NCBI GenBank assembly: GCA_024228555.1
Contig: JAAETI010000583.1
Location: 1 to 64,000, forward strand
Direction of reading: 5' to 3'
Length of the DNA stretch: 64,000 nucleotides
Source of the DNA: a bacterium
GTDB taxonomy: Bacteria > Actinomycetota > Acidimicrobiia > Spongiisociales > UBA5794
A model generated the notes under the pieces. That model did not search any database, was not told the origin of the DNA, and saw only the letters and a program-made list of their open reading frames with translations. The position numbers and the translations under genes are program-made. Shown here piece by piece: positions 51,938-64,000 of the stretch (positions are counted from its first letter, which is position 1; every line of letters begins with the position of its first letter).

Positions 51938-52390
51938 TCAGAACGGATCCGGCGCCCCGGGATGCAGCTTCTTGTAGAGATCAACTGCTTCTTCCAGGTA
52001 GTTGACCCCACAGACCAGTGCAACACTCGAATAGGCAGAGCATTCGCCCGTCTTCACATAGGCAAACGCCGTGCCGGCCATTTCGGCCATCAGATCCAGG
52101 TGGGGCTTGGCGTCCGGGTCAACTGGCAGTCGGGATACCACGTCTTGGTAGACATCGGGGTTCCAGTCCTCGAATTCCGTGGCAACGGTGGCGGCCTCAA
52201 TGACCAATTCCTGCTTCACCGCTTCGACTACCTGCGCCATGGTGGGCACGCCACATGTGATGGCCAAGTCGAGACGTGTGGTTGTCGGGGGAATGCGCAA
52301 ACCAGCGTCGGCGAGCACTATCACGTCACCGTGACCGGCCGCGGCGATAAGATCGAGGAGTTCGGGGTGGAGGATGCCATTTTGCTTCAT
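51938..52390 (-). CDS. rbsD: RbsD/FucU-family sugar mutarotase
   Basis: A 150-residue pyranase. LHPELLDLIAAAGHGDVIVLADAGLRIP (shown as two halves: LHPELLDLIAAAGHGD and VIVLADAGLRIP) is the RbsD/FucU front, with the catalytic His in GHGD. The end, CSAYSSVALVCGVNY, is also typical. It interconverts ring or anomeric forms of ribose, fucose or a related sugar. It diverges from the second SorC regulator, so it is probably controlled by it. ATG 52390 follows ACGGAG. Confidence 0.9.
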   Translation of the reverse strand: MKQNGILHPELLDLIAAAGHGDVIVLADAGLRIPPTTTRLDLAITCGVPTMAQVVEAVKQELVIEAATVATEFEDWNPDVYQDVVSRLPVDPDAKPHLDLMAEMAGTAFAYVKTGECSAYSSVALVCGVNYLEEAVDLYKKLHPGAPDPF

Positions 52391-52426
52391 TGCGGTTCTC
52401 CGTTCTCGCTTCTCGGCGATCAACTT

Positions 52427-52438
52427 GCACAATTGTGC
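52427..52438. promoter_or_regulatory. Candidate operator palindrome between rbsD and the SorC gene
   Basis: GCACAATTGTGC is a perfect 12-base palindrome located between divergent rbsD and the regulator, just upstream of the regulator's -35 (52444). Binding here could control both directions. Confidence 0.55.
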
Positions 52439-52443
52439 CGGGC

Positions 52444-52472
52444 TGGACAAATGCTCGCAAGGCGATGATACT
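52444..52472 (+). promoter_or_regulatory. Leaderless promoter of the second SorC gene
   Basis: -35 TGGACA (52444-52449), 17-base spacer, -10 GATACT (52467-52472), then eight bases to the ATG at 52481. No ribosome site is available before the ATG. Same architecture as the promoter at 22913-22941. Confidence 0.6.
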
Positions 52473-52480
52473 TCCTGCCA

Positions 52481-53416
52481 ATGGAGGAGAACAAAAACCG
52501 TCGGGAGCTAGCAATAAGGGCCTCGTGGCTCTACCACGAACGCGGCTTCAACCAGCAAGCCGTGGCAGATCGCCTCGGAATCTCACGCTCCACAATCAGT
52601 CGTCTACTCGCTGATGCCGAGAGGGAAGGCATCGTAAGGGTCATTGTCACCGAACCTCTCCCCGAGACGGCGCAGCTTGCCGAGGACCTGATCGAGAAAT
52701 ACCAGCTGGAGGGGGCAACCGTCGAGCTAGCGCTCGAGGATGAGAACCCGAGGGATGCCGCTGCAACTGCGATGGCACGCCGGCTCGAATCCATGGTTTC
52801 GGCTGGACCAGTGACTATCGCCGCCGGCTGGGGCCGCACCTTGGGGAGGGCCGCTCAGACCGCCCGGAGCCTGCACACGACCGGGGTGGTCCTGGTTGAC
52901 GCTTTTGGCCACACGACCACCGCAGATATCGCCCCTGCGGTCGAGGTCACCAACAACCTCGGCATCAAATACGGCGCCAAGGTGATGCATATCCCCTCCC
53001 CTGGGTTCGCTCCGAACGCCGAGATCGGTGGCAACTTCTACGACTCTGAACCTGTAGCCACTGCCCTCGAGCGGGCCAGGACTGCCGATGCGGTGCTGGT
53101 CGCAGTGGGAGTTGTTGGGCCAGAGTCCTTGCTCGTTGATGCGGGCTACATGAGCGCTGCCGCGATGGATCGGGTTATAGCCGCCGGTGGGGTGGGCGAG
53201 GTCTTCGGACTCTATTTCGATGCGGAAGGCAATGCGGTTGAACCGGAAACCCTCTACCCGATCTCGCTGTCGCTCGACGACTTGCGGGCCTCACGCAGGG
53301 TGATTGCGGCAGCCGGAGGACGTGACAAGACAATGGCCGTGAAGGGTGCCATCGCCGCCGGTATCGTCGATGAGCTGGCCATTGATCACACCCTCGCCGA
53401 AGCCTTGCTCGAATGA
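52481..53416 (+). CDS. SorC/DeoR-type sugar-binding transcriptional regulator
   Basis: A 311-residue regulator. The HTH is RGFNQQAVADRLGISRSTIS near 21-40. The effector domain starts at about 55 with PVTIAAGWGRTLGRA, NLGIKYGAKVMHIPSPGF and VLVAVGVVGPESLL, ending with KGAIAAGIVDELAIDHTLAEALL. It should sense a sugar phosphate of the second locus. It diverges from rbsD and is separated from the RuBisCO-like operon by one membrane-protein gene. Confidence 0.9.
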   Translation: MEENKNRRELAIRASWLYHERGFNQQAVADRLGISRSTISRLLADAEREGIVRVIVTEPLPETAQLAEDLIEKYQLEGATVELALEDENPRDAAATAMARRLESMVSAGPVTIAAGWGRTLGRAAQTARSLHTTGVVLVDAFGHTTTADIAPAVEVTNNLGIKYGAKVMHIPSPGFAPNAEIGGNFYDSEPVATALERARTADAVLVAVGVVGPESLLVDAGYMSAAAMDRVIAAGGVGEVFGLYFDAEGNAVEPETLYPISLSLDDLRASRRVIAAAGGRDKTMAVKGAIAAGIVDELAIDHTLAEALLE

Positions 53417-54705: not shown

Positions 54706-55842
54706 CTATCCAGATACGGCGGTCCTGAATCCGGCAGCGGTCTTGACTAGATCGTCACCGCGGTGAAGATCACCACCGATCAGTAGGGCGACATCATTGC
54801 CGTAGAACTCCTTGATCTCGACAACCCGGTCGAGCGTCATTCCGCCACCAGGTGACGGGAAGGCCGGCGTGATTGCCCCGAGCGGTTCAACCAGAGCTCT
54901 GGCAACGTCCTTGCATTCGGTTCTGGTGAAGCTGAACCGGCCCCCGTAGTTGGGGAACACCGACAGGTCGGCCCCAGCCAGCCTCATCAGAGTCCCATAA
55001 AGCCTGCCATGAGCGATGCCGTTCTCCGGCGAGGCTGAATAGGACCCGAGGAATGCGGGATGACCCATGATCGGGACCGCCACGTCCTCTTGCGAGGAGA
55101 CGTGTCGCATATGGTCGAAACCGGTAATACCGGGCAGGACCAGGAGCCCACCGGCTCCGGCGTCGATGGCGGCCCGAACTCGCTCATCGAGCAGGTGATA
55201 GGGAGCATTCACACTTGGCATGTAGATGGCCTTGCCACCCGTCTCCTCGTTTGCCTTGGCCACAGCTTCAGAGCACCGGCTCACCCTCTCGACAAATGGA
55301 GCAAAGGGCTGGTTGGCGAGGCTGTGATCATCTTTGATCATGTCCATGCCGCCTTTCGCCAACTCATATACGGTCTGCGCAAAGCGTTCCGACGATAGAC
55401 CCATCGGCTTGATTGCGGTCGCAAGCAGCGGCCGGTCCGGAGCATCGAACATCTCTCGCAAGCCGGCGATCCCGAATCGGGGCCCCACAAATCGAGCCAA
55501 TAGCGACTCCGGGAAACTGAAGTCGACGAGGCGGATCCCCGGCAGCAACGCACTGTTACCCCAGAGGACATTCAAGAGTTGGGGCAGCTCGTATCCGGTC
55601 GTCTCGACCGCGTAGCTAACCGTCGCTCGCACCTGACCGCTGTCGACAACATCAATCGACTCGACGCGCCCAACGATCTCCCTTTGGATGTCGTCGTCTG
55701 GGACCAGGTCGGCGGGGAACTCGATGGTTTGCTCAACGCGGAGCGCATTGACCCGAGACTCAGCCTCAGTCACGTCGCCGAAGAAGTCGTAGACCGCCAT
55801 GATCCGGTCCCCCGACAACGACAGAGTTGTTGGCTCGATCAC
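54706..55842 (-). CDS. RuBisCO-like protein (form IV, non-carboxylating)
   Basis: A 378-residue RuBisCO-superfamily protein. Lys145 in TAIKPMGLS keeps the first catalytic lysine of KPK, but the second (KPK third position) is Met. The carbamylated-Lys region reads GGMDMIKDDHSLANQ (Lys170, Asp172 kept, Glu replaced by His173). Loop 6, which holds the CO2-binding Lys in true RuBisCO, reads FPNYGGRFSF without Lys. So CO2 fixation is excluded. RLPs of this look act as enolase, isomerase or decarboxylase/transcarboxylase on ketose-phosphate-like substrates. GTG 55842 overlaps the upstream TAG (TAGTG). ATG 55800 is another start. Confidence 0.88.
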   Translation of the reverse strand: MIEPTTLSLSGDRIMAVYDFFGDVTEAESRVNALRVEQTIEFPADLVPDDDIQREIVGRVESIDVVDSGQVRATVSYAVETTGYELPQLLNVLWGNSALLPGIRLVDFSFPESLLARFVGPRFGIAGLREMFDAPDRPLLATAIKPMGLSSERFAQTVYELAKGGMDMIKDDHSLANQPFAPFVERVSRCSEAVAKANEETGGKAIYMPSVNAPYHLLDERVRAAIDAGAGGLLVLPGITGFDHMRHVSSQEDVAVPIMGHPAFLGSYSASPENGIAHGRLYGTLMRLAGADLSVFPNYGGRFSFTRTECKDVARALVEPLGAITPAFPSPGGGMTLDRVVEIKEFYGNDVALLIGGDLHRGDDLVKTAAGFRTAVSG

Positions 55843-56849
55843 TACAGCGCCTCCGCTTTGGCGAGGCTGTGGACGGCTTCGATACGCACCGCATCGAGGT
55901 CCGGCTCCGTGATACCGGTGGCCCGGCCGGTCAGCTTCTCAACGGCCCGCACCAGCGCCGGTGCATCCAACCCATATTCCTTCATCAGGTACGCCTGGCT
56001 GGCACCGTGGGCGTATGTGTCCTGTAGACCAAGCCGCACCAGCTTCTTGCCAATGGCGTTCTCCGCCATCAACTCAGCAACAGCCGACCCGAGACCGCCG
56101 ATGATGGTGTGATTCTCGAGTGTGATCACACCGTGGCGAGCCCCGAGGATTGCGTCGAGCACGACCGGGTCGCCAAATGGCTTGTGAGTTGAAACGTGAA
56201 GATGCTTCATCCCCACGCCGGCCGCCGCCAGCGGGGCGGCCGCTCGGACTGCCTCTTCGGTGGTGATTCCGGCAGTGAGGACAGTGACATCGTCTCCCTC
56301 GCTCAGTACACGGACCTCGTCGAGTCGCATCGGTTCAGCCTTGGGGAACAAGCGGGGCACTTCACCGCGCAACATCCTGATGTAAACCGGGCCGTCGACC
56401 GAATGTGCCACATCGAGAACGCTCTCGACCTCGGTGGCGTCACCGGTCTCGAGGACCGTCATGTTGGGAGTTGCCCGCATGATGGCGACGTCTTCGATGG
56501 CCTGGTGGGTCACCCCACCCGGAGTGGCTATCCCAGGCAGGAAAGCCACGAAACGCACCGGCAACTTCGGATAGGCGATCGACATCGCAAGCTGGTCGTA
56601 CGGACGCCGATAGATGAAGACGGCGAACGTATGGATGAAGGGCGTATAACCCTCGCGCGCCAAGCCGGCGGCGAAGCTCATCATGTTCTGCTCAGCCATC
56701 TTCATGGGGAAGAAACGATCGGGATAGGTGTCCCGCCACTTGCCAACCTCACTCGAATTCGTCAGGTCGGCGGTAAGCACGACAACCTCAGGCTTGTCCT
56801 TGCTCCACTCGATGAAGTTTTCGACGTGTGGTCGTTTCACGATTTCCAT
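55842..56849 (-). CDS. Transketolase, C-terminal half (split)
   Basis: A 335-residue subunit with the pyrimidine-binding and C-terminal domains: VVVLTADLTNSSEVGKWRD, PMKMAEQNMMSFAAGLA (the catalytic Glu of AEQN), GGVTHQAIEDVAIMRATPN and ENHTIIGGLGSAVAELM. Together with the next gene it forms a complete transketolase that moves two-carbon ketol units. Split forms occur in archaea, actinobacteria and in apulose-4-phosphate transketolase of apiose catabolism. Confidence 0.88.
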   Translation of the reverse strand: MEIVKRPHVENFIEWSKDKPEVVVLTADLTNSSEVGKWRDTYPDRFFPMKMAEQNMMSFAAGLAREGYTPFIHTFAVFIYRRPYDQLAMSIAYPKLPVRFVAFLPGIATPGGVTHQAIEDVAIMRATPNMTVLETGDATEVESVLDVAHSVDGPVYIRMLRGEVPRLFPKAEPMRLDEVRVLSEGDDVTVLTAGITTEEAVRAAAPLAAAGVGMKHLHVSTHKPFGDPVVLDAILGARHGVITLENHTIIGGLGSAVAELMAENAIGKKLVRLGLQDTYAHGASQAYLMKEYGLDAPALVRAVEKLTGRATGITEPDLDAVRIEAVHSLAKAEAL

Positions 56850-56850
56850 G

Positions 56851-57753
56851 TCACTTCACCATCTCTTCGTATGCCGCCTGATACTGAGCTCTCTCATCTG
56901 GCGAGGTGAACCTCAGATAGTGCAACAGGGGAGCCCGTTCGCCAAACAACGGCAAGCCGCGAACTGGATCGGTGCGCGCAATCACGAAGTGTGGCTTGCC
57001 TGTCGACATCGTCATGGCTTCCTCGAGCGTGCCCAGATCGTGCCCGTTGCTCTCCACTGCACTAGCACCGAACACGCGGATCCGGTTGGTGAGTGGGTCT
57101 CCGGTTTCGATCTCGTCGATACATCCGTCGCACTGCTGGCCGTTGGCGTCGACGATTACCCGCAAGTTGTCGAGTTCAAACCGTGCGGCTGATTCGATGG
57201 CTTCCCAGGTTTGGCCCTCCTGGAATTCCCCGTCGGACATCATCACCCACACGTCCCCGGTGTCGCCGCGCAACTTGCGGGCAAGTGCGATGCCACCGGC
57301 CTGACTGAGCGCCTGACCCAGCGATCCGGTGGTTGTCTCGACACCGGGCGAGTGTTCGCCTCCGATCATTTCGACAGTGCTGCCATCTTCGTTGAAGTGG
57401 TCAAGACCGCTCTCCGCCAATCGCCCGACCTCGATGAGCGCGGCGTAGAGCGCAAGCGCATAGTGAGCGGGCGAGAAGATGAAGCGATCGAATTGGGATT
57501 CCTTGGCGCCGTTGTAGTCACCGCCACTGAAGAACTCATGGCCAGGGGCACCGGGAACGCCGCCGAACTTGCGTGGTTCCAGCGGGGCAATGCTCGGGCC
57601 AAGGCGCAAGACTCGGGAGTAGAGCATCGCAAACATCTCAGCCGAGGAACATGCTTGGCTCATGTATCCGCCGTTGTTGCTCAACACATGTTCGAGGACC
57701 CGACGCCGAATACCATCGGCGATCTCTTGGGTCTGATCCTGCCAGTCGTTCAC
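56851..57753 (-). CDS. Transketolase, N-terminal half (split)
   Basis: A 300-residue subunit with the diphosphate-binding domain: GGYMSQACSSAEMFAMLYS, PAHYALALYAALIEVG, ETTTGSLGQALSQAGGIALA and the thiamine motif VMMSDGEFQEGQTWEAIE closing with DANGQQ. It pairs with the gene at 55842-56849. GTG 57753 follows AAAGGAG and overlaps the mtnA stop as GTGA. Confidence 0.88.
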   Translation of the reverse strand: MNDWQDQTQEIADGIRRRVLEHVLSNNGGYMSQACSSAEMFAMLYSRVLRLGPSIAPLEPRKFGGVPGAPGHEFFSGGDYNGAKESQFDRFIFSPAHYALALYAALIEVGRLAESGLDHFNEDGSTVEMIGGEHSPGVETTTGSLGQALSQAGGIALARKLRGDTGDVWVMMSDGEFQEGQTWEAIESAARFELDNLRVIVDANGQQCDGCIDEIETGDPLTNRIRVFGASAVESNGHDLGTLEEAMTMSTGKPHFVIARTDPVRGLPLFGERAPLLHYLRFTSPDERAQYQAAYEEMVK

Positions 57754-58832
57754 GAAACATCTCCTTTCTTGAAGGCGTCGCTTATCGACTCCTCAAACGG
57801 CGGCTTCAAAACACCAACCTCGGTGATGATTGCCGTGATTAGCTTCCCAGGGGTGACGTCAAAGGCGGGGTTCCACACCGAAATGTCCTGTGGCGCAGTG
57901 GGTTCGGAGCGCCACGATGTCATCTCGTGGTTGGGACGCAGCTCGATTTCGATCTCGGCGCCGGTCGCTATTGATGTATCAAACGTCGACAGTGGGGCGG
58001 CTACGTAGAACGGGATTCCCGCATAGTGGGCGTTGACGGCGTGAGTGAACGTGCCGATCTTGTTTGCGGTGTCTCCGTTGGCGGCGATCCGGTCGGCGCC
58101 AACGATCACTGCCTCGACCCGGCCCTCTGCCATCGCCGTTGCACTAGAGCCGTCCGGCATCAAAGTGACATCGATGCCGGCGTCTTGCAGCTCCCAAGTG
58201 GTGAGGCGGGCACCCTGCAGCAGCGGCCGGGTTTCGGATGCATATACCTTCACAGGTTCCCCCGAGGCTGCTTTGGCGTAGATCACCCCAAGGGCGGTCC
58301 CCCATCCCGCGGTGGCGAGACGACCCGTGTTGCAGTGCGTCATGATGTTGTTGATACCGGCGAGTTCCTTCATACCGAACAGACCCATCTGGGTGCACGC
58401 ATCGCGATCCTCACTCGTGATCAACTGGGCCTCGTTGAGGACCAGGCTGCGAATCGCAGCCACATCGGACCCTTTGCCGGCTGCGTCACGAACTCGGCTC
58501 ACCGCCCAGCTGAGGTTGACGGCGGTCGGGCGGGCATTCCCGATGGTTTCGACAAGATCATCCAGGACAGCCAGGGCGGCGGGCCGGTCGGCGGGTTGCC
58601 GTTCGTCCAAACCAACAACCATCCCGAATGCGCCGCAACTGCCGATTGATGGTGCGCCGCGCACCGCCAGCCGGTAGATCACATCAACGACTTCCTCGAC
58701 CGATCGCAGTTCGGCAATCGCCAGCTCGGCCGGAAGCTTGGTCTGGTCGATGATCTCAATGTGGTCGTCGACCCAGGTCACCGCCGGCCGCAGGTCGGCA
58801 AGAAATCCGTCGACCAGCGAAGCGTCGGTCAC
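57750..58832 (-). CDS. MtnA-family aldose-1-phosphate isomerase, paralogue 1
   Basis: A 360-residue protein with the canonical S-methyl-5-thioribose-1-phosphate isomerase motifs: AVRGAPSIGSCGAFGMV, SRPTAVNLSWAV-like text (NARPTAVNLSWAV), IMTHCNTGRLATAGWGTALG with catalytic Cys167, and VGADRIAANGDTANKIGT with catalytic Asp247. It turns aldose 1-phosphates into ketose 1-phosphates. GTG 58832 overlaps the kinase TGA as GTGA. Whether it acts on methylthioribose, 5-deoxyribose or another pentose is open. A second copy lies 4 kb away in the same operon. Confidence 0.9.
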   Translation of the reverse strand: MTDASLVDGFLADLRPAVTWVDDHIEIIDQTKLPAELAIAELRSVEEVVDVIYRLAVRGAPSIGSCGAFGMVVGLDERQPADRPAALAVLDDLVETIGNARPTAVNLSWAVSRVRDAAGKGSDVAAIRSLVLNEAQLITSEDRDACTQMGLFGMKELAGINNIMTHCNTGRLATAGWGTALGVIYAKAASGEPVKVYASETRPLLQGARLTTWELQDAGIDVTLMPDGSSATAMAEGRVEAVIVGADRIAANGDTANKIGTFTHAVNAHYAGIPFYVAAPLSTFDTSIATGAEIEIELRPNHEMTSWRSEPTAPQDISVWNPAFDVTPGKLITAIITEVGVLKPPFEESISDAFKKGDVS

Positions 58833-60046
58833 GATCCCAACACCTCTGCAGCCTTCGCATCGAAGACGGCACCCATGGCCGCGACGGATCCGAGAGAGTC
58901 GCGTTCCCTGATCCAGGTGCTTGCGGTGCGCAGCACGATGGTGGCGGCCTTGACATGCTCGTCATGAGGCAACTCCTGGATATCAGTTACCTTGGCAAGT
59001 CCGATGATGCGCCGGTTGGCTTTGCAGCCGGCGTATCCGATCGTGTCACGTGCAACCTGGTCGAGCCACTCCTCGAGGAAGCCGTCGGTCCAAGTCTTGT
59101 CAAGCCGGGTCGGCCAGAGCCGTCGCATCTCTGCCTCAAAGGCATCCCACGTTTCGACAGCCATCTCGGCAAGCCACTGCTGATACTCGGCGGGACGGTT
59201 GAGTACGATTGCTCGCGCTTGTGCGGCCAGGTAGTTCCCAATTAGAGCGCCGAGATCGAACCCAACCGGGCCGTAGTAACAGAACTCAGGATCGATAACC
59301 CGACACTGAGCACCGGTCGCGGTGTGCTTGACCATGACAGATCCAGAGTGCAGGTCGCCGTGCAGCAGCGCCTCGCCGGCAGTCATGAAGCGATACTTCA
59401 GCGATCCCGCCTCGGCAAGCAGCCGGGTGTCGGCGCGCATCGCGTCCACCTCGGGGATCAGCTCATCGACGTAGCTGTTGTTGTCGGCCTCGATGTAGGG
59501 CTCGGTGAAGACGAGGTCTTCCGTGATCTTGCATAGCTCGGGGTTGATCGCATCGGCGAGAAGCTGCTTCGCCTCGAGCTGATCAACCGAGAAGAACGAC
59601 GTGCTGAAGGCGTTGGCGGCAACGAAGCGGCCGAGATCTGCGCCGACTCCTGGGTGGGCGTTGCCCAGGTTGAGCTGACTACGCCACATGTCCCAACCCA
59701 TCAGATACTCCATGGCGAGGACGTAGTGCTCCCGATCCAGGTAGTACAGAGCAGGCACGAGTTCCGGCACGACCGCACCGGCAGCGCTGAGGCCACGGGC
59801 CTCCGCAAACACCCGCTCCGGGGTGAGCGGCCAACCTTCACCGACCAGACGCACGTAGGGAAGAGACTGCTTGAGGCAGATCCCGTCACCGTTGGCGTCT
59901 TTGCAGACGAAGACCAGATTGAGGTTGCCGTCGCCAACCTCAGAAACTTCGAGAGTGGCGGTGTCGACAATTCCCGCCAGTTGCGGGGTTCGGTCGATGT
60001 ATGCCGGAACAGTCTGCGGTGTCAGAATCTCGTACTTTGGGGCCAT
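58829..60046 (-). CDS. MtnK-like sugar kinase
   Basis: A 405-residue kinase of the methylthioribose kinase family. Signatures: EVGDGNLNLVFVCKDANG at the front, EALLHGDLHSGSVMVKHT (catalytic loop HGDLHSGS) and VIDPEFCYYGPVGFDLGALIGNYL (Mg-binding DPE). It phosphorylates C1 of the sugar, and the MtnA paralogues take the product. No 5'-methylthioadenosine nucleosidase is near, so methylthioribose is not the only possible substrate. Confidence 0.9.
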   Translation of the reverse strand: MAPKYEILTPQTVPAYIDRTPQLAGIVDTATLEVSEVGDGNLNLVFVCKDANGDGICLKQSLPYVRLVGEGWPLTPERVFAEARGLSAAGAVVPELVPALYYLDREHYVLAMEYLMGWDMWRSQLNLGNAHPGVGADLGRFVAANAFSTSFFSVDQLEAKQLLADAINPELCKITEDLVFTEPYIEADNNSYVDELIPEVDAMRADTRLLAEAGSLKYRFMTAGEALLHGDLHSGSVMVKHTATGAQCRVIDPEFCYYGPVGFDLGALIGNYLAAQARAIVLNRPAEYQQWLAEMAVETWDAFEAEMRRLWPTRLDKTWTDGFLEEWLDQVARDTIGYAGCKANRRIIGLAKVTDIQELPHDEHVKAATIVLRTASTWIRERDSLGSVAAMGAVFDAKAAEVLGS

Positions 60047-60061: not shown

Positions 60062-60340
60062 CTAGGCCGGATCGAGCGCGTGTGCACTCAACGGCGTGAT
60101 CTGAATATCCATCCAGGGAAACAGTGGCAGCGAGCTGAGAACCTCATGGAGCTCCTCAAGACTGTCCACCCGATATAGGGCCATAACCGCCCGCCGTCCC
60201 GGAATCCTCCATATCCGACGAAGCTTGCCTGCGGCCACCAACTCCTCGCCACGAACCTTCTCCGCGGCTTTCACCTCGGCAAGTCGCACTGGATCCATGT
60301 CCGGAGAAATGTCCTGCTCGATGCGGGCGAGAAATTCCAT
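60062..60340 (-). CDS. Muconolactone isomerase-like small protein
   Basis: A 92-residue ferredoxin-fold protein of the muconolactone delta-isomerase family: MEFLARIEQDISPDMDP, ERVRGEELVAAGKLRRIWRIPGRRAV (here GEELVAAGKLRRIWRIPG), and SSLPLFPWMDIQITPLSAH. Such small proteins appear beside sugar lactone and aromatic lactone genes. I chose ATG 60340, after GGAGGG, because it matches the family front. A start at 60406 would add 22 odd residues. Confidence 0.82.
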   Translation of the reverse strand: MEFLARIEQDISPDMDPVRLAEVKAAEKVRGEELVAAGKLRRIWRIPGRRAVMALYRVDSLEELHEVLSSLPLFPWMDIQITPLSAHALDPA

Positions 60341-60429
60341 GGCTACCGGCCCTCCGTATTCCCTGACTCGGGTTTTGGTCAATTTCGTTGTTGTAACGGT
60401 CGCCACCAGCGGGTTGCGACCAGTCCTAT

Positions 60430-62397
60430 TCAGATCACTCGTTCGTTGCCACCATCAATGGGAACATGCGCACCGGTGATCGGTTGAAACACGTCTCCAA
60501 GCATGGTGGCGACGACTCGTCCGACAGCGGCACTTGTGATCTCGACACTCATCAGATTGCGCCGTTTGTACTCATCGATAGTCATGCCGTATCGATCAGC
60601 CCGTTCGGCAAGAAGCTCGGGTGTCCACAGCGCCGTATCGAACACGGCGTCTGGATGGACCGAGTTCACTCTGATCCCATCGTCCGCCCACTCAAGTGCG
60701 GCCACCCTGGCGATCTGATTGGCAGCGGTCTTCGATGCTGAGTAGGCGGATGCTCCCGGCCCGGGAGCGGCAACATTCTTTGAACCAATAACCACAACAC
60801 GACCACCGCCCGGCGCTTGCAGGAGGAGAGGGTGCATCAGCGACAGAAGCTGAACCAGACTGTCAACGTTGACGGACATGGCGATACGCCAGGCGGTTGG
60901 GTCGTGTGCGGAGATTGGGGAGGATTCGGGGAAGAGGCCTGCGGAAGCAACCAACATGTCGACGCCGCCAAAGCGGGCGACGCCGGCGTCGAGTGCGGCA
61001 GCCGTTGCTTCCATCGAGGTGAGATCGCATGGGACGCCGAGGTACGCCGGGTGGTCAGTCATTTCGACGACATTGGGGGCGATGTCAAGACCGATCACTG
61101 CGGCGCCACGGTCGAGCAGTTCGAGGGCACATCCTCTTCCGATACCTGAGGCAGCTCCGGTAACAACCGCAACCTCCCCAGTGAACTCGCCGTCGTCGCG
61201 GACGCGATCGAGCTTGGCCTGCTCCAGTTCCCAGTACTCGAGGTTGAATATGTCTCTTGGCGATAGTGCTGAGTACCCGCCAAGACCTTCGGCTTGCTCA
61301 ATGACGTTGATGATCTGCAGGTAGATGTCGCCTGCCGCCTCCTGGGCTGCCAAGTCGGGACCGACACTCAGCATCCCGAGTTCACTGTCGAGGATGACAC
61401 GGGGTGCAGCATCGAGCATCCGCAAATCCCTACCAACCGAGTGCTCGTCGAAGTACGCCTCGTAGTCCTTGGCGTATGTTGCGACATCCCGCCCGATCAT
61501 GGGAACCCGCTTCGTCCAAATGACATGGTCAGGGGTGGCTGGACCTTGCAGGGCGACGGCCTCCAGATCGGTGCGCTGGGCGAACGCCCAACTGGCTGGG
61601 TCGACGTGCCGCTGCACTACGACAGGCTTGCCGGCTATGGCAGAAAGCTCTTTGCGGAGTTTGGCGATCTCGGTGCGATCGATATAGCCGGGGCCTTCGG
61701 CAGGTTGTGGCGACCGGCCACCGACGGAGTTGCGAGCCAGGTAGGTCTCAGCCTCACTGACCAGTTCGACCATTCGGTGATAGGCATGGCGGGGAGTGTC
61801 ACCAAACGTGAACACACCATGGTTCATCAGAATGACACCCTGTGTCCTGTCAGTCGCTTCGCGTTGGAACGCATTGGCTGCGGCAGTGGCGGCACCAAAG
61901 CCCGACATGGCGTACGGAACGACAACGACGCGGTCACCGTAGAGATCCCGTACTTTGTCTTCGCCACCGACTGTGTTGGCGATCGCAAGCAGAGCGTTGG
62001 GGTGGGCATGCTGGACCGCCTTGTCAGGGATCACCGCGTGGAGGATTGCCTCCACCGAAGGTGTCGGCGCCGACGGGTCCAACAGCGACCCGCGGAGCTC
62101 GTTGAACATCTCGGTGTCAGACAACTCGGAGAGCTCCACGAGCTTGCGCACCCGATCGAGACGCAGCGGCGCAAACCCTGCGACGTCGATATCGACCAGG
62201 TCGAACCCGCTGGCCTTCACATAAAGGACGTCGACCGCATCGCCATAAAGATCGGTTCCCGTGATCTTGACCGACGTGTTGCCACCACCGTGGAGAACGA
62301 GAGCTGTGTCGGCACCAAGCAGCCGCGAGCCGTAGACGCACTCGTCGAGCAGTCCTTCACAGGTCGCTGCTTGATCGTCATCCCACAGGTTCTGCAT
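60430..62397 (-). CDS. Class II aldolase-short-chain dehydrogenase fusion
   Basis: A 655-residue fusion. The N-terminal class II aldolase/adducin domain (to about 380) has VLHGGGNTSVKITG, the zinc histidines in QHAHPNALLAIAN and MNHGVFTFGD. The C-terminal SDR domain (from about 405) has VVTGAASGIGRGCALELL, then VASAGLFPESSP and the YSASK catalytic pair near 580. This order matches the bifunctional rhamnulose-1-phosphate aldolase/lactaldehyde dehydrogenase type and the Ald2-like aldolases. It would cut a ketose 1-phosphate to DHAP plus an aldehyde and oxidise a product. ATG 62397. Confidence 0.9.
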   Translation of the reverse strand: MQNLWDDDQAATCEGLLDECVYGSRLLGADTALVLHGGGNTSVKITGTDLYGDAVDVLYVKASGFDLVDIDVAGFAPLRLDRVRKLVELSELSDTEMFNELRGSLLDPSAPTPSVEAILHAVIPDKAVQHAHPNALLAIANTVGGEDKVRDLYGDRVVVVPYAMSGFGAATAAANAFQREATDRTQGVILMNHGVFTFGDTPRHAYHRMVELVSEAETYLARNSVGGRSPQPAEGPGYIDRTEIAKLRKELSAIAGKPVVVQRHVDPASWAFAQRTDLEAVALQGPATPDHVIWTKRVPMIGRDVATYAKDYEAYFDEHSVGRDLRMLDAAPRVILDSELGMLSVGPDLAAQEAAGDIYLQIINVIEQAEGLGGYSALSPRDIFNLEYWELEQAKLDRVRDDGEFTGEVAVVTGAASGIGRGCALELLDRGAAVIGLDIAPNVVEMTDHPAYLGVPCDLTSMEATAAALDAGVARFGGVDMLVASAGLFPESSPISAHDPTAWRIAMSVNVDSLVQLLSLMHPLLLQAPGGGRVVVIGSKNVAAPGPGASAYSASKTAANQIARVAALEWADDGIRVNSVHPDAVFDTALWTPELLAERADRYGMTIDEYKRRNLMSVEITSAAVGRVVATMLGDVFQPITGAHVPIDGGNERVI

Positions 62398-62413: not shown

Positions 62414-63523
62414 TTACTTGGCGTCAGCAAACTCCGGGTACAAACCCAGAATCGCTTCCTCACTTGCTTCGCAAATTCCACGCTCGGAAATGATCCCCGT
62501 CACATAACGACGTGGCGTCACATCAAAGCCAAAGTTGGCTGCATTGGATCCGGGGGCAGCGGTCTCGGGTTCAACGTGCTCCCCATTGAGATAGCCAGTC
62601 GCCCGTGTTACCTCGGTGCCGTCCCGTTCTTCGATCGGGATCTCCGCCACACCGTCGTGGAGCAGCGGGTCGAGAGTGCTGGAGGGCAACGCTGCATAGA
62701 ACGGAACACCGTTCTCCTTGGCAACGACTGCCTTCATGTAGGTGCCGATCTTGTTGGCAACATCTCCGCTCACCGTCGTGCGGTCGCTACCAACGATCAC
62801 AAAGTCCACCTTGCCGTGCTGGAGGAGATGACCGGCGCTGTTGTCGGCGATCACGGTGCAGGGGACCCCGGCCTGGCGCAGCTCCCACGCGGTGAGCCGC
62901 GCTCCCTGATTGCGTGGTCGAGTTTCGGAGACGTACACGTGGATTGGGATGCCTCGTTTGTGTGCGGCATACATCGGTGCTGTCGCCGTTCCGTGCTCGA
63001 CAAAGGCAAGCCACCCGGCATTGCAGTGGGTCATGATGTTGACCGTTTCACCGGTGCGTTCATGGATCTCTTCGATGATGCCAAGCCCGTGCTGACCAAT
63101 GGCGGCGCAGTAGGCAACGTCTTCGTCAGCAATGGTCTCGGCAAGGGCCTTTGCGGCCGCGATGCGTTCTTCGCCATCTTCAATGCCGAGGATCGCACCC
63201 AATTGCCGTTGCACGGCCCAAGTGAGGTTCACTGCAGTGGGTCGGCTCGCCTCGAGCTCAGCACCGGCTCTGCGCAACGATTCATCGGCGGTCGTCACAT
63301 CCATGTGAGCCGTCGCAAGTGCGGCCAAGTACATGCCGTAGCCTGCGGACACGCCGATACAGCCTGCACCCCTTACAACCATGTCGGCGATGACTTGCGT
63401 CATCTCGCTGGAAGTACGGATGGGGACTTCCACATATTCAAACGGCAGAAGCCGCTGTTCGATCGCAACCACCACCGTCGGATCGTCGGAGTCGATCCAG
63501 ATGGTGCGGCTGGCCGGTGTCAT
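62414..63523 (-). CDS. MtnA-family aldose-1-phosphate isomerase, paralogue 2
   Basis: A 369-residue divergent paralogue. VVRGAGCIGVSAGYGMYLAA and SRPTAVNLTWAVQ replace the classic text. Catalytic Cys167 (IMTHCNAGWLAFVEHG) and Asp247 (IVGSDRTTVSGDVANKIGT) are kept at the same residue numbers as in paralogue 1. The changed RGAG loop and GSDRTTVSG are like those of 5-deoxyribose-1-phosphate isomerases (DrdI), from memory. Two bases separate its ATG (63523) from the permease stop. Confidence 0.88.
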   Translation of the reverse strand: MTPASRTIWIDSDDPTVVVAIEQRLLPFEYVEVPIRTSSEMTQVIADMVVRGAGCIGVSAGYGMYLAALATAHMDVTTADESLRRAGAELEASRPTAVNLTWAVQRQLGAILGIEDGEERIAAAKALAETIADEDVAYCAAIGQHGLGIIEEIHERTGETVNIMTHCNAGWLAFVEHGTATAPMYAAHKRGIPIHVYVSETRPRNQGARLTAWELRQAGVPCTVIADNSAGHLLQHGKVDFVIVGSDRTTVSGDVANKIGTYMKAVVAKENGVPFYAALPSSTLDPLLHDGVAEIPIEERDGTEVTRATGYLNGEHVEPETAAPGSNAANFGFDVTPRRYVTGIISERGICEASEEAILGLYPEFADAK

Positions 63524-63525
63524 GC

Positions 63526-64000
63526 TCACAGCGGGACCGCCGCCACGAAGCGCTGCTTCCTTCTCGAGAGAGTGAACGAGAAGATCAGAGCAACAACAAG
63601 AACCAGACCCTTTACGACGTCCTGCCAGTAGTACTGGAAGTTCATCATCGTGGTACCGGTGAGAAGGATCCCAATGAGAATCGCGCCGAGTGCAGTACCG
63701 AAAGCATTCGGCTTGGCCGCACCCAGTACCGACGTACCGACAAGAGCCACCGCGACTGCATCGAGCAATAGCGAGTTCCCTGCGGAGATGTCGCCCTGGC
63801 CGATTCGGGACGCAAGGATCAAACCCGCAATCGATGCGTAGACACCCGACAGCATGTAGGCGAACGCCTTGTAGCGACCAACCCTGGCTCCGGCGAGACG
63901 AGCAGCCTCGGGATTGGAGCCAATGGCGTACATGACCCGACCCCACTTGGTACGAGACAGAAGGAACCAGGTAAGAACGGCCAGGACCGCAAAAATGATC
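63526..64000 (-). CDS. RbsC-type sugar ABC importer permease (cut by window edge)
   Basis: About 158 C-terminal residues of a BPD_transp_2 permease. The family signature GRVMYAIGSNPEAARLAGARV is split here (GRVMYAIGSNPEAARLAG), followed by AYMLSGVYASIAGLILASR and NSLLLDAVAVALVGTSVLGG-like text (LLLDAVAVALVGTSVLG), then helices to VVALIFSFTLSRRKQRF. It should pass a pentose-like sugar to the operon's kinase. The start, ATPase and binding protein lie beyond the right edge. Confidence 0.9.
   Translation of the reverse strand, partial: IIFAVLAVLTWFLLSRTKWGRVMYAIGSNPEAARLAGARVGRYKAFAYMLSGVYASIAGLILASRIGQGDISAGNSLLLDAVAVALVGTSVLGAAKPNAFGTALGAILIGILLTGTTMMNFQYYWQDVVKGLVLVVALIFSFTLSRRKQRFVAAVPL

Follow-up and report, generated by a model that had tools for sequence, protein, structure and literature searches.

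The RubisCO-like protein (RLP) encoded in the window, a 64,000-nucleotide stretch of an Acidimicrobiia contig (JAAETI010000583.1), is by its sequence a new member of the known DeepYkr clade, and its pairing with a split transketolase (TK) adds a new variation to a salvage pathway already described. At a probability of roughly 0.6, the RLP is a DeepYkr-type 1,3-isomerase within an operon that salvages 5-modified ribose, with the split TK replacing the cupin of characterised systems and cleaving the RLP product. Methylthioribose and 5-deoxyribose are by-products of polyamine synthesis and radical SAM enzymes, and the sugar phosphate that the window RLP would probably rearrange is a remnant of S-adenosylmethionine use, either sulfur-bearing or deoxy. 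Within this model, the substrate, the TK donor, the direction of the TK reaction and the fate of the two-carbon unit are what we infer.

The RLP gene and its operon

Table 1. Genes of the RLP operon and its flank, with positions in the window.
Feature	Position	Strand	Details
RbsD-family sugar mutarotase	51938..52450	minus	101 bits vs cut-off 93
SorC/DeoR-type sugar-responsive regulator	52481..53416	plus	
RubisCO-like protein (RLP), DeepYkr clade	54706..55842	minus	GTG start, 378 aa
Transketolase C-terminal half (TKC)	55842..56849	minus	pyrimidine + C domain, 335 aa
Transketolase N-terminal half (TKN)	56851..57753	minus	ThDP-binding, 300 aa
MtnA (1), S-methyl-5-thioribose-1-phosphate isomerase family	57750..58832	minus	413 bits vs cut-off 279
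MtnK, S-methyl-5-thioribose kinase family	58829..60046	minus	402 bits vs cut-off 275
Muconolactone-isomerase-like small protein	60062..60406	minus	114 aa; conserved in Acidimicrobiia relatives
Class II aldolase / short-chain dehydrogenase fusion	60430..62397	minus	655 aa (ATG 62397); 932 bits vs cut-off 831
MtnA (2), methylthioribose-1-phosphate isomerase family	62414..63523	minus	369 aa (ATG 63523)
Ribose-type ABC importer permease	63526..64000	minus	cut by window end

From downstream to upstream, the operon runs through the RLP, TKC, TKN, MtnA (1), MtnK, the small protein, the aldolase/dehydrogenase fusion, MtnA (2) and the ABC importer (Table 1). Between the RLP and MtnK, each gene either overlaps its neighbour by 1-4 bases or lies 1 base from it, and the split TK is translationally coupled to the RLP, the TKC gene overlapping the RLP gene by 1 base. 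Past the window end, on the L077 contig, lie the whole permease gene and open reading frames read as an ATPase and a solute-binding protein; the presence of both MtnK and an importer points to uptake of free sugar, which the window genome probably imports. The regulator also adjoins the RLP in L014, L015, L017 and L018, and the E. coli DHAP-shunt repressor MtnR has been described as a member of the DeoR family (PMC12632272). The two MtnA paralogues of this single operon perhaps serve two substrates or two branches. Elsewhere in the window, a second sugar/acid gene cluster (2924-22961, minus strand) encodes a SorC-type regulator, Dak1/Dak2 kinase halves, a xylose-isomerase-like barrel, an ABC importer, a DeoC/LacD aldolase, nucleoside hydrolase-like and phosphorylase-like proteins, a two-chain E1 dehydrogenase, a 3-hydroxyisobutyrate-type dehydrogenase, and a lactate-racemase-like protein with nickel-insertion and AIR-carboxylase-like partners.

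Placement and active site of the RLP

An RLP tree was built with IQ-TREE (LG+C20) from 84 rows, the partial or duplicate RLPs L058_12888, L070, L071, L073 and L075 having been dropped before the tree and the counts. In this tree, the window RLP, the solved structure 3qfw and the remaining KDDH/GGRF group formed one 65-row set at 100/100, and MtnW (2oek, 4nas and L084) formed a separate set, also at 100/100. The annotated OiaX L083, whose identity is that of its public annotation, grouped with L005, L012, L082, L085 and L086, and form I RubisCO and the Photo RLP 2qyg were placed apart from the DeepYkr set; the tree had no XiaX reference, 3nwr being present in the structure lists only. The window RLP therefore lies outside the MtnW, OiaX-type and Photo RLPs and within the DeepYkr clade. 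By sequence, its nearest solved structure was 3qfw, an RLP of Rhodopseudomonas palustris (267 bits vs 157 for the next). The AlphaFold model (mean pLDDT 92.1) also matched 3qfw best (Z 46.5, rmsd 1.4 over 346 residues, 40% identity), with MtnW structures second-best in VIA-align (Z 45.8, 29% identity) and within 1 Z unit, a tie that leaves clade membership to the sequence. According to the available part of PMC5893883, the two RLPs of R. palustris are RLP1 (DeepYkr) and RLP2 (Photo); as 2qyg is titled rlp2 and is distinct from 3qfw, the latter is taken as RLP1.

The window RLP carries the motifs AIK145-P-M147-G, MIK170-D-D172-H173 and NYGGR302F, in which M147 aligns with the KPK position, H173 with the Glu204 position and Arg302 with the loop-6 Lys of form I RubisCO. 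Residues K145, K170, D172 and H261 are invariant across 64 clade relatives and 19 other RLP/RubisCO rows, and R302 is likewise present in 65/65 clade rows. Position 173 is His in 63/65 clade rows, the exceptions being L031 (Gln) and L081 (Asp), vs Glu in 19/19 of the other rows; of the same 19 rows, 15 have Lys at position 302, 3 have Ser (MtnW type) and 1 has Arg. M147 is kept in 55/65 clade rows. Because it is conserved over the 65 clade rows, this residue pattern is neither chance nor error. Several observations of an earlier note on this DNA were borne out by the alignment, namely the retention of Lys145, Lys170 and Asp172, the KPM motif and His173. Its statement that the loop-6 Lys is absent also stood, with the correction that an invariant Arg302 takes the place of the Lys (65/65) and keeps a charge there. 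The proposal that KDDH is a signature of apionate-pathway RLPs had to be corrected: OiaX (L083) and its relatives L082, L085 and L086, the last three of which adjoin four-carbon-acid-sugar kinases, read KDDE and keep the loop-6 Lys. On these alignments, H173 together with the missing loop-6 Lys (KDDH with GGRF) is the mark of the DeepYkr RLP clade and not of apionate-pathway RLPs. In L031 (7135-9177), KDDQ replaces KDDH, and a search of that genome found neither an RLP-type TK nor the cupin.

Scores, tree and site residues led to the rejection of both alternative family assignments of the window RLP. Function as an MtnW-type 2,3-diketo-5-methylthiopentyl-1-phosphate enolase would suit the structural tie and the presence of MtnA and MtnK, and is nevertheless highly improbable, given the separate clade, the His in place of the metal-site Glu, and scores below both MtnW cut-offs (165 vs 513.6 bits and 220 vs 409 bits), in agreement with the earlier note, which had set this RLP apart from MtnW. 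Further, no acireductone dioxygenase was found over cut-off in the window genome, nor in any of the 32 genomes searched (0/32), such that canonical oxygen-dependent salvage appears absent. An apionate-type role, as decarboxylase or transcarboxylase/hydrolase of a 3-oxo sugar-acid phosphate, is more improbable still; it shares with the window RLP the superfamily only, the OiaX score is 77.4 bits against a cut-off of 700, the OiaX rows form a separate clade with their own metal site and loop 6, and no four-carbon acid sugar kinase was present among the operon proteins scanned.

In the available text of PMC5893883 and PMC4958253, the DeepYkr RLPs of R. rubrum and R. palustris convert 5-(methylthio)ribulose-1-phosphate to 1-(methylthio)xylulose-5-phosphate, a product obtained with R. 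palustris RLP1 and the R. rubrum RLP both in vitro and in vivo (PMC5893883, same portion), and a cupin (Rru_A2000; RPA2170) then converts it to 1-deoxyxylulose-5-phosphate (DXP) and methylthio-glutathione. By analogy with these relatives, from which the activity is known, the window RLP is probably a 1,3-isomerase of 5-substituted ribulose-1-phosphates. Site residues are alike in TK-linked and cupin-linked clade members, which argues for the same RLP reaction with either partner. KPM was considered as a marker of TK partnership and rejected, since the cupin-linked RLPs L029, L030, L033, L054, L061 and L065-L068 also carry it.

Split transketolase, cupin and donor site

Among 61 RLP loci from the scan of genome contigs, the stretches around the RLP contained a TKC homologue in 44 and a TKN homologue in 43. 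Adding the window and five more loci to these 44 gives 50 TK loci; in 47 of them, TKC is encoded on the strand of the RLP and within 500 nt of it, and the remaining three (L024, L049 and L076) have the order RLP-TKN-TKC. Carriers include Actinomycetota (among them the cultured Ornithinimicrobium cavernae KCTC 49018, L058), Chloroflexota, Thermaceae, a Thermotogae MAG, a Myxococcota MAG titled Deltaproteobacteria, a Rhizobiaceae plasmid (NT-25), Ponticoccus and Vibrio nigripulchritudo. Pairwise distances of RLP and TKC across 46 loci were correlated (r 0.94; 0/2000 permutations as high), and an RLP-type TKC (E <=1e-140) was found in exactly 3 of 198 class genomes, the same three that have a DeepYkr RLP, with the next TKC match, in G141, being 46% identical and in a genome with no RLP match; as these controls are related by descent, they do not count as independent trials. 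In G141, the PGG-type split TK (L114:678-2481) lies beside an E1-beta-like protein and a hydroxyisobutyrate-type dehydrogenase, both named by eye. L039, a MAG titled Bifidobacterium breve, has nearly the same RLP as L046 (Actinomycetes bacterium LBMAG bin), and the species label is probably wrong.

The methylthioadenosine (MTA)-isoprenoid shunt, with its cupin, is the only in vivo job of a DeepYkr RLP named in the accessible part of PMC5893883. By the pattern above, most clade members found (44/61 loci) use a different, uncharacterised partner, and no RLP-transketolase operon was described in the partial texts reached by a literature search that covered few subscription papers and no preprints. 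The TK-free loci L054 and L065-L068 carry a cupin matching 3jzv (Rru_A2000). In genome searches, the cupin was found in 12/15 RLP genomes without an RLP-type TK vs 4/48 with one, counts that exclude L079, L080, L081, L087 and 3qfw and in which the 49 TK genomes searched are taken as 48 distinct, as G168 and G224 apparently represent a single genome. The window genome (G000) had 0 matches to the Rru_A2000-type cupin (methylsulfurylase) at E 1e-10. The opposition of TK and cupin gave a Fisher p of 2.5e-7, which ignores kinship; independent tree pairs ran in the opposite direction in 3-5 cases and in the same direction in 0-1, too few pairs at a two-sided p of 0.06-0.375. Four genomes had both TK and cupin and three had neither, and the MAGs among them are incomplete. 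The TK-only label changed 10 times on the RLP tree, from which the trade between TK and cupin probably happened repeatedly, and the split TK seems to stand in for the cupin that finishes salvage elsewhere.

Both TK chains passed Pfam gathering scores for their ThDP-binding, pyrimidine and C-terminal domains, and all split-TK scores fell below the curated transketolase cut-offs. In the window TKN, EMIGGEHSPG replaces the GHP motif of transketolases (E. coli TK His100), and all 46 RLP-linked TKN read E(M/L)I(G/A)(A/G)EHSPG, vs GHP in the Carboxydothermus and human enzymes and in the genome's own other TKs. The window TKC has FLPGIATPGGVTHQ where TK and DXP synthase (DXS) references have GEDG/GADG, and 46/46 RLP-linked TKC read FLPGx.TPGGx(T/S)HQ; at this position, GEDG, GADG or EDG is found in the DXS reference, in the TK of Carboxydothermus and in L091, one of two further TKs of the genome, whereas the second, L090, which is also split, is likewise without EDG. 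His100 and the GEDG Asp, which we take to be a donor-site residue, are thus both replaced in every one of the 46 pairs, a set that leaves out L043 (partial TKN), L075, L090, L091 and TK loci without a kept RLP row; over all rows, the signatures were present in 48/49 TKN and 50/50 TKC.

According to the available text of PMC7661550, His66, His100, Gly114 and His473 of the E. coli enzyme are donor-binding, His100 is Phe in DXP synthase (DXPS), and the H100F/L exchange makes a Geobacillus TK active with pyruvate. Loss of the GHP His in the RLP-linked TK suggests a donor without a C1 hydroxyl, which would match the 1-methylthio or 1-deoxy product expected of a DeepYkr RLP. However, the local TKN alignment has a one-residue gap at the GHP site, where a neighbouring invariant His (H134) could serve instead, and the split TK of G141, with no RLP, likewise combines a PGG-type site with the lack of GHP, so the link between such substitutions and RLP products is not a strict one.

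Proposed salvage pathway and alternatives

The most likely role of the TK would be to cleave the RLP product in a cupin-free salvage of methylthioribose and/or 5-deoxyribose. The ABC importer would bring in 5-methylthioribose and/or 5-deoxyribose, MtnK would phosphorylate it, MtnA would convert the 1-phosphate to the ribulose-1-phosphate, and the RLP would shift the carbonyl to give a 1-substituted xylulose-5-phosphate, either 1-methylthioxylulose-5-phosphate or, from 5-deoxyribose, DXP. Attack of the TK thiamine diphosphate on the ketone would then split the sugar into glyceraldehyde-3-phosphate and a two-carbon fragment without a C1 hydroxyl. With the methylthio substrate, this fragment would expel methanethiol and depart as acetate, acetyl-phosphate or acetyl-CoA; with DXP, it would depart as acetaldehyde. 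The aldolase/dehydrogenase fusion would form a parallel branch to dihydroxyacetone phosphate (DHAP) and an aldehyde, as in the DHAP shunt. If the TK does act on the RLP product, this would constitute a second oxygen-independent finish to methylthioribose/5-deoxyribose salvage, possibly releasing methanethiol.

A bolder form of this proposal, possible yet doubtful when taken jointly with its route, is that the split TK is a new thiamine-dependent C-S bond-cleaving enzyme: 1-methylthioxylulose-5-phosphate would yield glyceraldehyde-3-phosphate and a methylthio-acetyl adduct, which would lose methanethiol in phosphoketolase fashion to leave acetyl-ThDP. If true, this would complete an oxygen- and glutathione-independent route for methionine salvage and carbon scavenging, carried by freshwater Actinomycetota, Acidimicrobiia, Chloroflexota, Deinococcota, Thermotogota and some Proteobacteria.

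An RbsD gene next to the operon would be expected for a sugar whose 5-OH is free rather than for a 5-modified ribose, and with the adjoining ribose-type importer it speaks for a plain ribose pathway, in which ribose or ribose-1-phosphate would pass through ribulose-1-phosphate (by an MtnA-like step) to xylulose-5-phosphate (by the RLP), the classic TK donor, which the split TK would use in the ordinary way. The Ponticoccus locus L080, with purine nucleoside phosphorylase, a deaminase-like amidohydrolase, MtnA, TK and RLP, would also fit. This pathway is unlikely, as MtnK and MtnA score as methylthioribose enzymes, the donor-binding His is missing from every RLP-linked TK, the TK trades with a methylthio-specific cupin, and xylulose-5-phosphate needs no dedicated TK. 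Somewhat less likely again is a TK that builds, transferring a two-carbon unit onto the aldolase-branch aldehyde or free 5-deoxyribose, with the RLP product used elsewhere, e.g. as DXP for isoprenoids. There is precedent in the promiscuous TK of Synechococcus elongatus, which converts 5-deoxyribose to 7-deoxysedoheptulose (PMC8102628, part of the text), and the aldolase fusion is frequent (29/61 RLP loci), but the TK is nearly always close to the RLP, co-varies with it and seldom occurs in genomes that have the cupin, all of which speak against a building role.

The cleavage pathway has in common with the MTA-isoprenoid shunt (R. rubrum Rru_A1998 RLP and Rru_A2000 cupin; R. palustris RLP1 and RPA2169/2170) a DeepYkr RLP downstream of MtnA, a predicted 1-substituted xylulose-5-phosphate product and oxygen independence. 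It differs in having a split TK and no cupin, in MtnK and an importer that suggest a scavenged free sugar, and in its predicted end products, glyceraldehyde-3-phosphate and a two-carbon unit instead of DXP. With the DHAP shunt (MtnK, MtnA and Ald2; DrdKIA; methylthioribose and 5-deoxyribose), the window operon shares the grouping of MtnK and MtnA with a class II aldolase and a DeoR/SorC-type regulator, whereas its predicted aldolase is fused to a dehydrogenase and it has the additional RLP-TK branch. The split-gene TK of Carboxydothermus hydrogenoformans (6yak/6yaj) is likewise two-chain and is the nearest solved relative of both halves, but retains the GHP His and GEDG Asp that the window TK lacks. 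MtnW and OiaX/XiaX RLPs have the RubisCO superfamily fold in common with the window RLP, and MtnW and OiaX differ from it in clade, in their KDDE metal site and in loop 6.

MTA phosphorylase (TIGR01694, E <1e-65) was found in 14/32 genomes (8/24 with TK and 6/8 without), with no strong match in the window genome; TIGR01694 was used in place of PF01048, which over 33 genomes was too broad to separate MTA phosphorylase from other phosphorylases. In the sister Acidimicrobiia, an LsrF-type thiolase, which presumably acts on 5-deoxyribulose-1-phosphate oxidised at C4, gives a hint of 5-deoxyribose, and one pathway may serve both this sugar and methylthioribose. Such a thiolase lies beside the RLP-TK operon in L016-L018, L051 and L056 (e.g. 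L018:4583-5458, 349.8 bits vs cut-off 297); in the window, the interval from MtnK to the aldolase fusion has none. Ponticoccus L080 combines RLP and TK with a nucleoside-type importer, purine nucleoside phosphorylase and MtnA, and its amidohydrolase scores best vs deaminase- or hydrolase-type models, below their cut-offs. A BisC-family molybdopterin S/N-oxide reductase, also below cut-off, lies inside the Ponticoccus RLP-TK operon (L080:5698-7974). The set suggests a 5'-modified nucleoside, perhaps a sulfoxide. On a plasmid of Vibrio nigripulchritudo (L081:8019-12638), TK-RLP adjoins an FGGY kinase and the RLP metal site reads KEDD; no MtnA or MtnK was found in the L081 stretch, and this RLP may use another ketose-1-phosphate.
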